From: Salinigranum halophilum | Lineage (GTDB): Archaea > Halobacteriota > Halobacteria > Halobacteriales > Haloferacaceae | Length of the DNA: 64,000 nt | Direction of reading: 5' to 3' | Assembly (NCBI RefSeq): GCF_007004735.1 | Contig: NZ_SSNL01000003.1 | Span: 682,001 to 746,000 of the forward strand | In this document: in pieces, positions 4,835-8,600 of the stretch | How positions within the stretch are numbered: the first letter of the stretch is position 1 | How the letters are laid out: each line of letters starts with the position of its first letter | Position numbers and translations under genes: made by a program | The notes under the pieces: generated by a model | Told to the model about the DNA's origin: nothing | The model's database searches: none | What the model saw: only the letters and a program-made list of their open reading frames with translations

Positions 4835-4857
4835 GTTCGAGTCGGCTCCCATCGAGT

Positions 4858-5034
4858 ATGAGCCGTATTCTGACACTCACGGAGTCGCTCCGCGGCTTCG
4901 ACGCCGGTACCGAGTTCGACCGTGTTGCGACGTACGACCACTGGCACGTCTCGACCGCGAAGCTCGAAACGGTCGACGGAACGGGCCGCCTCGAGGTCAC
5001 CGCCGACGAACTCCTCAAGTTCTTCGCCGCGTAA
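4858..5034 (+). CDS. Small paralogous protein, copy 1 (58 aa)
   Basis: A 58-residue protein, not recognised by function. Most of it (TEFDRVATYDHWHVS...AKLETVD...LEVTADELLKFFAA) aligns without gaps to the product at 5251-5424, so the two are recent tandem paralogs. Both have a short N-terminal strand, a central W-H-V core and a C-terminal helix ending in FFAA. The ATG at 4858 is supported by a leaderless-type box A at 4829-4834. The gene is preceded by an inverted repeat. No membrane segment or metal ligands are visible. Confidence 0.7.
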   Translation: MSRILTLTESLRGFDAGTEFDRVATYDHWHVSTAKLETVDGTGRLEVTADELLKFFAA

Positions 5035-5224: not shown

Positions 5225-5250
5225 CCTCGAAGCGCGTTCGAACGGATGTG

Positions 5251-5424
5251 ATGAACAAAATCACCCTCCAGAAAGACTACCGCGGCTTCGAGGCCGACAC
5301 CGAGTTCGAGCGCGTCGCCGAGTACGGCAGCTGGCACGTCTCGGCCGCGAAGCTCGAGACGGTCGACAGCACGCGCCGGCTCGAGGTCACCGACGAAGAG
5401 CTCACGCAGTTCTTCGCGGCCTGA
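5251..5424 (+). CDS. Small paralogous protein, copy 2 (57 aa)
   Basis: A 57-residue protein, paralog of the 4858-5034 product. About 30 of the last 41 positions are identical by eye (TEFERVAEYGSWHVSAAKLE then TVD...RLEVT..EL..FFAA). The N-terminal 14 residues differ more. ATG 5251 is chosen from the alignment; an in-frame GTG directly before it (5248) is the alternative. It carries its own copy of the shared promoter motif, so each paralog is probably transcribed alone. Function unknown. Confidence 0.7.
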   Translation: MNKITLQKDYRGFEADTEFERVAEYGSWHVSAAKLETVDSTRRLEVTDEELTQFFAA

Positions 5425-5657: not shown

Positions 5658-5850
5658 CCCACCTGTGGTAACACGGCACAGGAACAAGTATTTTGAGTTA
5701 CACGTTCTCGAGTGAACGTCTCGGCGACGCGTCGAGTGAGGTCGTGAGTCACGGGCGGTCCACTCGCTGGTCGCTCGACGACCTTCACGCACCGACTCTC
5801 ACCAGCGCGAGCGACACGCGGAGCGGTCGCTCGCCGTCTTGTGTTCGAGA

Positions 5851-5898
5851 GAAGTGCGCTGGCTGGGATTTGAACCCAGGTTGTGACCATGGCAAGGT
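5851..5898 (-). repeat. attL: 48-bp tRNA-Gly 3' duplicate
   Basis: These 48 bases are identical to 8010-8057 and correspond to the anticodon loop, variable region, T arm and acceptor 3' strand of the tRNA-Gly gene, plus four bases beyond. Identity stops at 5850 and 5899. The tRNA cannot fold as a normal gene here because its 5' half is missing or degraded. Confidence 0.88.
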
Positions 5899-6120
5899 GT
5901 TCTGCGATACCCTCGAAAATACGCGCTGAGAGGCATTATTTCGAGCGATGCCGTCGATACAGTGGACAGAATCCGGAAATCACTAATTGAGTTCATATCC
6001 CTCTCGTGAGCCTAATTAGGAGTCCACTGGAAATCATAGTATTCTGATAATCCAATGGTCGGTCAAGGTTAACTGTATTCCACGAAAGTTCTATTTCCCA
6101 ACAGAACCACTCCGATAATA

Positions 6121-6681
6121 ATGCGACGCATAGCTATTCTCTCAGTAGTCGCCCTGGCACTCTTCTCAGGTATCTCAGTGTCACCAGCACTGGCACAAGA
6201 TAGCCTATCGTGTAATGCTCAGGAGAACTCTGAAATTTGTATCACTGAGTTCAATATAACTCAAAATGTGATAAAAAGGGGTTCAAATGTGGAAGGGGTG
6301 TTAGAGGTCAAGAATATCGGAAACGCTACTGGGGAGGCAGTCATTCTGGTTGCGACTGACAGACCAGATGCTATGACAAAATATCAAGAATATAAACAAT
6401 TTTCGCTCGATGCGGGACAAACCAGGGAGATACCGTTGGCGTTCACCACGGGGGAAAGCTCTCTCGGAGAGCATCGAGTGAATGTTCTCGTTTTGGACGA
6501 GGACAGTAACCACCTGTACGATGCAACAGGCTACTCACAGTCGGTGATAATTAAAAAAGACCCACTGACCTTGAGCGAAATAGCCGAGTTCATCCAGACT
6601 ACTCGTGCCCTTTGGGTATTGGTGACTGGCGTCCTAACCTTTCTCGCATTTCTAATAGGTAAGGGTGGGTCTAGACGGTGA
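6121..6681 (+). CDS. Exported membrane-anchored protein, element cargo
   Basis: A 186-residue protein with a Sec-type signal peptide (residues 1-25, likely cut after ALA-Q). Its extracellular domain (about 28-145) has the beta-strand pattern of CARDB/NEW3-like folds (VLEVKNIGNATGEAV). It ends in a transmembrane helix (about 163-182) followed by Gly and two Arg. Function is unknown. The gene is AT-rich with codon use unlike the flanking genes, which suggests transfer. It converges with the integrase gene 23 bases away inside the tRNA-bounded element. It may be a surface or envelope protein of the element; that is inference. Confidence 0.72.
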   Translation: MRRIAILSVVALALFSGISVSPALAQDSLSCNAQENSEICITEFNITQNVIKRGSNVEGVLEVKNIGNATGEAVILVATDRPDAMTKYQEYKQFSLDAGQTREIPLAFTTGESSLGEHRVNVLVLDEDSNHLYDATGYSQSVIIKKDPLTLSEIAEFIQTTRALWVLVTGVLTFLAFLIGKGGSRR

Positions 6682-6704
6682 CTTGTAACAAATCAGCCAC
6701 AGTC

Positions 6705-7847
6705 TCACCACATCGAGTCGGCCTTCTCTCCCCGAATCTTTGAGTCAGAGTGGACGTATCGCATAGTCGTACTACTACTCTTGTGACGCAACTGGTCGCG
6801 GGCGTGGTGGATTCCCTCGTTGTTGGCCCACAGAGTCGCAACACCGTGGCGAATCGAGTACCACGAGAGGTCGCGCCCCTGGCTGTCTATGTCAGCTTCT
6901 TCCAGCAATTTGTCAAGCAAGTAGTTGAGCGAGTTCGAGTCGTAGGGGTTCGCGCGTTGAGTCAGCCAGAGGTCGTCACGGCCGTCGTAGTCTTCGTAGA
7001 CCTGCCGTTCGTTCATCCAGCGTCCAAGCGCATCGACCGTCTTCTGTGAGAGGGCGCACGACCAGTTCTCGTAATTCTTCGTCGATTCTTCTTTCGGGAT
7101 ATTGAGTTCCCCATGTTGGAGGTTCACCCAGTCGACCGTCGCGCGGCCGACCTCGATGGGCCGAAGTCCAGTATCAAGCGTGACGGAAACAAGAGATGGG
7201 ACCTTCCAACAGTTCGCCCGTTTGAAGTGGTCGGGACTGATATGTTCCTTCTCGACTCCGAACCGTTGCGCTAAGTGAATTTTCAGATTCTCCCGCTCTT
7301 CAGGTGTCATCGTGCTGTTGTTGTAACTCTTGACTGTGTTGTACGAGAGTGCCGCTTCATAGAGCGCGGGGAATTCGCTCTGACGGAAGTAGTCCCGAGT
7401 GTTACTGGTGGTCGCTTGTGAGAGCTGAACCTTGCAGTCCCACTCGTGGTCAGTGTTCTCCTGATGGTTCTTGTACTTGAACAGGCGTTTGATTGCCTTC
7501 ACGAAGGTCAGGAGGGTCGAGTCGGCGTAATTACTCATCAACGCTAACTCTTCCATCATCTCGTCCGCGTGCGTGGGACCGAAGTTGAGACTGTACTTCC
7601 CTTCAGTGCGCCAGAGCCAGCGGTACGCTTTATCGACCTTGTAGTTCGTCGTCTTGAGTGTCGTAGCTGAGTATCCTCGGCGGCGGGTCGGGTTCTTCCC
7701 CAGAGTGGAGAGCCACTTCAGGAAGTCCTGTTTGAACTTGCGATAATCTGCATCGACGCGCGGGCCGAACTCATCGAGCGCGGATTCAGTCTGCTGTGCG
7801 ACGATACGGAAATCGTAATCCGGGGATTCGTCTGTGTTTGAGTCCAT
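6705..7847 (-). CDS. Tyrosine recombinase/integrase (XerC/D-like)
   Basis: A 380-residue integrase that should catalyse recombination between the element and the tRNA-Gly site. An N-terminal SAM-like core-binding domain covers about residues 35-130; the catalytic domain follows from about 200. Active-site residues are R229 (TGLRPIE), K257, Y330-x-x-R333 followed by H334, H355 (LRHKSSS) and the nucleophile Y364 (MRYVHS). The usual first His of HxxR is Tyr here. The gene is intact after integration, so it is not of the split SSV1 type. Its N-terminus faces the tRNA gene. Confidence 0.9.
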   Translation of the reverse strand: MDSNTDESPDYDFRIVAQQTESALDEFGPRVDADYRKFKQDFLKWLSTLGKNPTRRRGYSATTLKTTNYKVDKAYRWLWRTEGKYSLNFGPTHADEMMEELALMSNYADSTLLTFVKAIKRLFKYKNHQENTDHEWDCKVQLSQATTSNTRDYFRQSEFPALYEAALSYNTVKSYNNSTMTPEERENLKIHLAQRFGVEKEHISPDHFKRANCWKVPSLVSVTLDTGLRPIEVGRATVDWVNLQHGELNIPKEESTKNYENWSCALSQKTVDALGRWMNERQVYEDYDGRDDLWLTQRANPYDSNSLNYLLDKLLEEADIDSQGRDLSWYSIRHGVATLWANNEGIHHARDQLRHKSSSTTMRYVHSDSKIRGEKADSMW

Positions 7848-8009
7848 CGAGCGGGTGTGAAACTGCTATAGTGTCTGTAGGAAGCCCTACAGTAACGGTA
7901 ATCGCGTGACTACGGAGGGTTCGAAAATTAGCGTCTTCTGGATTCTTCGACGTTCATTGTTGCGCCACCAAGGTCAGCGAAAAATGGCGTCAGAGTGCCC
8001 ACAAGGGCG

Positions 8010-8057
8010 GAAGTGCGCTGGCTGGGATTTGAACCCAGGTTGTGACCATGGCAAGGT
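8010..8057 (-). repeat. attR: 48-bp repeat within tRNA-Gly
   Basis: Exact copy of 5851-5898. It covers the 3' part of the intact tRNA-Gly gene, from the anticodon stem to the acceptor end, plus four flanking bases. Together with the left copy it defines the core attachment site of the element. Confidence 0.88.
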
Positions 8058-8084
8058 CACGTGATACCACTACACTACCAGCGC
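8014..8084 (-). tRNA. tRNA-Gly(GCC)
   Basis: A 71-nt tRNA on the minus strand. The acceptor stem pairs GCGCTGG with CCAGCGC, the discriminator base is A (8014), the D arm contains GTGGTATCAC, the anticodon loop is TTGCCAT (anticodon GCC, glycine) and the T arm is CTGGG-TTCAAAT-CCCAG. There is no intron and no encoded CCA. It is the integration target of the adjacent element and remains complete. Confidence 0.96.
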
Positions 8085-8122
8085 GTCCTGCGCGTTCTAC
8101 GCATTAACTGCTAATGCCACGG

Positions 8123-8133
8123 TCATATAAAAA
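8123..8133 (-). promoter_or_regulatory. Box A promoter of tRNA-Gly
   Basis: On the minus strand this reads TTTTTATATGA, a strong TATA-like element about 40 bases upstream of the tRNA 5' end. It is the only AT-rich stretch between the tRNA and the divergent 8256 gene. Confidence 0.6.
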
Positions 8134-8255
8134 TCCGTCCTTTCACCGACGCCGTGGCAGAGAAACACAGGACGAGAGCCTCGCTGTGACACTGTTCGCT
8201 CCCCGAACCAAACATTGATGATAGTTCTCACCCATTGACATATGAGGCACCCTAC

Positions 8256-8600
8256 ATGACGACGAAAGAGATTCTGGACCACCACTGGGATGCGTTCACG
8301 ACACAGGACCTCGACATGGTGATGGAAGACTACGACGAGGGGTCTGTCGTCATCACGAACATGGGCACGTTCCGTGGACTCGACGAGATCGAGGGCCTGT
8401 TCACGAACATCTTCGACGAGTTCTCACAGGCGGGGTCGACGGCCGAACTGGAGATGGAAGAGATCGAAGGCGACACCGCGTACATCGTCTGGCACGGCGA
8501 GACGCCCGACAACCACTACGCGTTCTGCACGGACACGTTCCGCATCGAGGACGGGGTCATCACGATGCAGACGTTCGCCGGCGACGTCCAGCCGAAGTAA
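8256..8600 (+). CDS. SnoaL-like/NTF2-like protein
   Basis: A 114-residue single-domain protein with the NTF2/SnoaL cone fold: an N-terminal helix (ILDHHWDAFTTQDLD), a strand with YDEGSVV, then F-R-G-L-D-E-I followed by a helix and three long strands ending in the conserved IEDGVI-T-QTF. Members include polyketide cyclases and many proteins of unknown role, so no reaction is assigned. ATG 8256 is preferred to the upstream in-frame TTG (8235) because it begins at the usual family N-terminus. Confidence 0.85.
   Translation: MTTKEILDHHWDAFTTQDLDMVMEDYDEGSVVITNMGTFRGLDEIEGLFTNIFDEFSQAGSTAELEMEEIEGDTAYIVWHGETPDNHYAFCTDTFRIEDGVITMQTFAGDVQPK

Follow-up and report, generated by a model that had tools for sequence, protein, structure and literature searches.

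Within the 64,000-nucleotide stretch of Salinigranum halophilum DNA analyzed here (the window, to which coordinates refer unless another locus is named), an integrase gene and a gene for an exported protein form a small element inserted precisely at a tRNA-Gly(GCC) gene, occupying positions 5899 to 8057. We hold with very high confidence that the element is genuine and its integration precise; probably it is also complete, a recently integrated minimal element made up of an integrase and its cargo, rather than a decayed stub. Its features, with the evidence for each, are as follows.

5899..8057, no strand: integrated unit of 2,159 bp, the element plus one att copy (repeat spacing; 5899-8009 missing from empty sites)
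5851..5898, minus: att copy at the far end, the displaced 3' part of tRNA-Gly(GCC), 48 bp (repeat and flank alignments)
8010..8057, minus: att copy within the intact tRNA gene, 48 bp (direct repeat)
8013..8084, minus: tRNA-Gly(GCC), with an element-derived 3' part and a chromosomal 5' part and promoter side (ARAGORN, flank alignments)
6705..7847, minus: tyrosine recombinase (integrase) of the HF2-like family, 380 aa (Pfam, alignment, viral relatives)
6121..6681, plus: cargo, a predicted exported protein of 186 aa with a signal helix, a CARDB/Ig-like domain, and a C-terminal TM helix (AlphaFold, Foldseek, hydropathy, element-borne homologues)
7848..8009, no strand: non-coding arm of 162 bp from the integrase start to the tRNA
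5899..6120, no strand: non-coding distal arm of 222 bp upstream of the exported gene
5785..5850, no strand: former downstream flank of the tRNA, displaced 2,159 bp by the insertion (contiguous with the tRNA 3' part in sister species G166, locus L090)

An earlier, sequence-only reading had described an AT-richer segment flanked on each side by an identical 48-bp copy of the tRNA 3' part, holding an integrase and one exported membrane-anchored protein but no replication or packaging gene, and all of this was borne out. The two att copies form a direct repeat, identical at 48 of 48 positions with a spacing of 2159, which comprises the tRNA 3' part from the anticodon loop on and 3 bp past the tRNA end; the first 19 nt of the repeat, with three mismatches allowed, matched twice in the window, against 0.01 matches expected by chance. 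The G+C content of the element is 51.5%, compared with 63-64% in the 2-kb flanks, and GC3 is 0.71 for the integrase and 0.47 for the exported gene, compared with 0.79-0.90 for most of the flanking genes checked. The two genes, which lie tail-to-tail 23 bp apart, were the only credible ones between the att copies, and no pseudogenes or gene fragments were found there. Apart from the integrase, scans with Pfam, PHROGs, and NCBIfam detected no virus, conjugation, or transposon hallmark gene in the element; replication, packaging, and transfer genes are absent from it, as are, by comparison with the Humcor2 gene list, pleolipovirus spike, VP4-like, and ATPase genes. The size of 2.2 kb given originally (5851-8057) holds as 2,207 bp when both att copies are included, but the integrated unit proper measures 2,159 bp. 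The genome and viral collections searched yielded no further copy of this same element.

The empty-site comparison suggested with that reading came out in its favor, and the outcome named there as refuting it, a segment present in all relatives, did not occur. Three congeneric species (G165, G166, and G167) keep the flanking gene order on both sides and the tRNA-Gly gene, with no integrase at the site, and 5899-8009 had no match at the site in any of the three. Window positions 5785-5898 aligned continuously to G166, across the tRNA 3' part and the flank downstream of it (86% over 114 bp), the alignment of 8010-8400 ran from the tRNA into the SnoaL gene, and the left- and right-flank alignments to G166 overlapped by exactly 48 bp, which shows a precise insertion of 2,159 bp. 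The insertion is probably young, since its displaced tRNA fragment has stayed identical, whereas the flanks diverge by 10-28% between species of the genus.

Degenerate copies of the tRNA 3' end occur as palindromic units (GGATTGTGAACC ... GGTTCAAATCC) next to tRNA-Gly and in several other places (L090 2860-4600; L091 3000-4300; L092 12950-13250; G000 C1:330227 and C4:299920), and all four genomes of the genus contain them, with 4 to 11 matches each. Two neighboring short ORFs of about 60 aa, at 4851-5033 and 5242-5424, look like paralogues, and orthologues of the latter are kept in three of three sister species.

The integrase is one open frame lying inside the element, unsplit, unlike the SSV/pTN3 suicidal integrase elements, and matched Pfam Phage_integrase at 8e-18. 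Residues R229, K257, R333, H355, and Y364 were invariant among 21 aligned relatives, and from general knowledge of tyrosine recombinases we take them to be the catalytic set. Scans of viral and genome contig collections with patterns from the window integrase alone gave no match; with the 21-sequence alignment we reached 80 named loci across Halobacteria and 11 viral ones, and 108 of 170 genomes of the host family had an integrase match. The best viral relatives (48-50% identity over 98%) belong to tailed viruses of the HF1/HF2, HRTV, and HSTV types, with genomes of 74-78 kb. Integrases of this HF2-like family adjoin tRNA genes across Halobacteria; HF2-related integrases have been reported beside tRNA genes with truncated tRNA copies 5-52 kb away (PMC3119063), and an HF2-type integrase is present in all members of the Hafunaviridae (PMC8651126). 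In the Halorubrum phage HRTV-14 (L089 4678-6125) the integrase likewise follows a tRNA gene, tRNA-Thr(GGT), in the layout of the integrated chromosomal elements, which suggests that this gene may be the viral attP. An HF2-like tailed provirus (Hafunaviridae) was considered for the window element and rejected because only the integrase matches viruses at the DNA level; no DNA similarity to viruses was detected outside it, and no head, tail, or packaging genes were found between the att copies.

Bounding elements of this integrase family by exact repeats overlapping a tRNA, with duplicates removed by hand, gave 37 elements, 10 of them no longer than 4 kb, in a search that favors short elements because it covered only 10-17 kb. 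The window element was the smallest of the 37, consistent with its original description as among the smallest plausible tRNA-targeting elements. The ten are listed by size.

Window element: 2159 bp, tRNA-Gly(GCC)
Halogeometricum limi: 2292 bp, tRNA-Thr
MAG SW_7_65_23: 2548 bp, tRNA-Leu
Halobellus clavatus: 2580 bp, same tRNA-Gly as the window element
Natronocalculus amylovorans: 2585 bp, tRNA-Glu
L123: 3016 bp, tRNA-Gly CCC
L251: 3092 bp, 19-bp repeat only
Halarchaeum nitratireducens: 3123 bp, tRNA-Glu
Halorubrum sp. Boch-26: 3708 bp, tRNA-Gly CCC
MAG SW_8_68_21: 3722 bp, tRNA-Thr

Several relatives share the plan of an integrase plus few genes at 2.2-3.7 kb, and six of the ten small elements, the window element included, carry at least one membrane protein. 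The small elements are scattered on the integrase tree, requiring at least seven changes, so that smallness is a recurring state and not a clade; a common origin of all small elements was thereby ruled out. The tRNA-Gly(GCC) locus is an integration hotspot. Upstream of an RNA methyltransferase gene and rpl3, it is occupied by related integrases, some of them broken, in four genomes from other genera of the family (G086, G089, G069, and G158; L094, L093, L095, and L096).

Comparison of related elements at the same tRNA gene showed that cargo had been swapped behind a conserved integrase and conserved ends in two pairs, both of them relatives and not copies of the window element. Elements L123 and L124 occupy the same tRNA-Gly(CCC) in related genomes and match at 89% from the left flank through the integrase to its stop codon; past that codon there is no match until the last stretch before the tRNA, where it resumes and continues through the flank. 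The cargo is two multi-TM proteins in one and three other proteins in the other. The two integrases differ at 66 nucleotides and only 5 amino acids, with dN/dS of 0.022 (NG86) or 0.031 (YN00), so that purifying selection on the integrase is evident in this pair of relatives. The same arrangement was seen at tRNA-Thr, where L114 and L117 share the integrase and ends; the cargo of L114 is two small TM proteins, whereas that of L117 is a ScaI-like restriction enzyme and a DNA methylase. The L117 integrase has an internal stop. The whole cargo of this 3.7-kb element (L117 13719-15427) consists of the ScaI-like restriction endonuclease and an N6/N4 DNA methylase, and these were the only other cargos tested that PADLOC recognized, apart from a marginal Avs3a match (0.019). 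Elsewhere the cargo is a DUF6498 membrane protein (L171), a multi-TM protein (L170), or a 214-aa protein without a family (L094). Two proteins, in L204 and L124, have an RN-x3-5-H motif which, judged from the sequence, is reminiscent of HEPN RNases.

The cargo of the window element is predicted to be a secreted, membrane-anchored protein with a CARDB/Ig-like domain. In an AlphaFold model (18 sequences, pLDDT 80), an Ig-like beta sandwich lies between a signal helix and a C-terminal TM helix, and the alignment contains two invariant cysteines. The Foldseek matches, many of them FnIII/Ig-type domains, included the CARDB domain 3idu (TMt 0.72), but Pfam CARDB gave no match. PADLOC gave no match for the protein, and an NCBIfam match to AAC(3)-I (2e-4), far below the cut-off, was taken as spurious. 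Scans of viral contigs for the protein were empty; its alignment was too variable for use in scanning. Homologues fell into two groups, one a family located on chromosomes, in a related genus as well as others, close to UspA-like and KaiC-like genes, and the other consisting of three copies on integrating elements: the window element, the alphapleolipovirus Humcor2 (MW344764) together with its provirus copy, and a 4,167-bp element of G391 at tRNA-Val with a 34-bp repeat. Besides the homologue, the G391 element encodes a Prim-Pol protein and an integrase of a different type; homologue and integrase lie 5 bp apart and, like the window pair, tail-to-tail. The three element-borne copies share one branch with support 99/99, although the branches are long. 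The exported gene thus turns up repeatedly with integration modules that have no common origin, and this speaks for a role in the life of the elements. As other integrating elements carry this lineage, the protein probably acts at the cell surface for the benefit of the element or of its host; our best guess is that it excludes competing viruses.

We propose that the element integrates as a 2.16-kb circle, which the integrase recombines with the tRNA-Gly(GCC) gene, and that it may still be able to integrate in this way. The crossover would take place in or close to the anticodon loop, the point from which the 48-bp identity runs, and the former 3' part of the tRNA would be displaced to the far end of the element; as the element brings a new 3' part, the tRNA would stay whole. 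In the window element and its relatives the repeat edges lie at the anticodon arm, whether the 3' half is duplicated (the window element) or the 5' half (L114, L117, L123, L124, and L204), and this placement of the edges suggests strand exchange in the anticodon loop. That loop is a known target region, and 5'-half attB sites have been called unique to pTN3-like integrases, with rare similar cases (PMC8371274). The integrase always adjoins the promoter side of the tRNA. In the window element it follows the tRNA closely on the same strand, and the tRNA promoter may drive its transcription. As the element has neither replication nor transfer genes, once excised it must move passively; transfer would be by cell fusion or mating, in vesicles, or by a transducing virus, followed by reintegration.

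The sequence-only reading had offered a minimal element or a stub as alternatives; the first is favored here, and the second appears unlikely. A stub would be the immobile remnant of a larger provirus or integrative plasmid whose replication and structural genes had been deleted, as might be suspected because the closest integrases at the same tRNA sit in larger elements (that of Halobacterium salinarum is 7.6 kb with many more genes), the viral integrase relatives reside in the large genomes noted above, and the cargo homologue in G391 is accompanied by a Prim-Pol gene absent here. Such decay fits poorly with an integrase that is open and complete with all catalytic residues, with identical att copies enclosing a compact layout free of gene fragments, and with a viral DNA match limited to the integrase; moreover, independent elements of 2.2-3.7 kb have the same plan, and relatives have exchanged cargo.

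Less probable still is a satellite whose replication and packaging depend on one particular helper virus, either a tailed HF2-like virus or a pleolipovirus. The integrase does have relatives in HF2-like viruses and the cargo a homologue in Humcor2, but these point to two different virus groups, the window and Humcor2 integrases are unrelated (no significant similarity, E 0.8), and outside the integrase there is no viral DNA similarity able to serve as a packaging signal. It is very improbable that the exported gene is not cargo but a normal surface gene of the host next to an integrase relic: homologues do sit in fixed chromosomal neighborhoods with UspA-like and KaiC-like genes in the related genus and others, but the window copy groups with the element-borne copies, is much poorer in G+C (GC3 as given above), lies inside the att repeats, and is absent from the three sister species.

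Returning to the preferred reading of a complete minimal element, we offer a broader proposal only tentatively: haloarchaea may host minimal integrase cassettes, circles of 2-4 kb in which a tRNA-targeting integrase and conserved ends accompany a single exchangeable cargo module (a surface or membrane protein, restriction-modification, or other), spreading without replication or transfer genes of their own, and the Ig-like surface protein could be a virus-exclusion module common to cassettes and viruses. With two genes and precisely defined ends, the window element lies at the lower size limit of integrase-driven mobility in archaea. Together with relatives that carry different cargo behind one integrase, it makes persistence without replication or transfer genes directly testable, and likewise whether small surface or membrane proteins carried in this way protect the host from viruses.

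Elements of this kind are known, since cryptic integrated elements of 2.6-98 kb have been described in Thaumarchaeota (Krupovic et al. 2019, PMC6563490). Like these, the window element has a tyrosine recombinase and direct repeats and no virus or conjugation hallmark genes; in contrast, it occurs in Halobacteria, its integrase is of another family, its repeats are 48-bp tRNA repeats, its 2.16 kb falls slightly below their minimum, and its family gives evidence that single cargo modules are exchanged while the integrase is conserved. With the HF2-like integrase islands and proviruses (PMC3119063, PMC8651126) it shares the integrase family, the whole tRNA, and the truncated far-end copy, whereas those span 5-52 kb and contain many genes or whole viruses. 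A literature search for single-cargo mini-elements with an integrase found none, which is weak evidence of novelty as few subscription papers were covered; as far as the literature covered shows, what is new is the 2.16-kb size, the use of an HF2-type integrase to carry small cargo modules that can be swapped, and the link to integrases of an Ig-like surface protein common to unrelated elements and a virus. Humcor2 and the 4.2-kb tRNA-Val element of G391, which hold the nearest homologues of that protein, also integrate at tRNA genes but differ in having a Humcor2/SNJ2-like integrase unrelated to that of the window, att sites of 13 and 34 bp, and replication genes. Tycheposons combine tyrosine recombinases, tRNA sites, and modular cargo. 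Like the window element, tycheposons and phage satellites (reviewed in PMC11389934) are small, integrate, and rely on others to be transferred; the window element is archaeal and smaller, and shows no evidence of a helper or of packaging.
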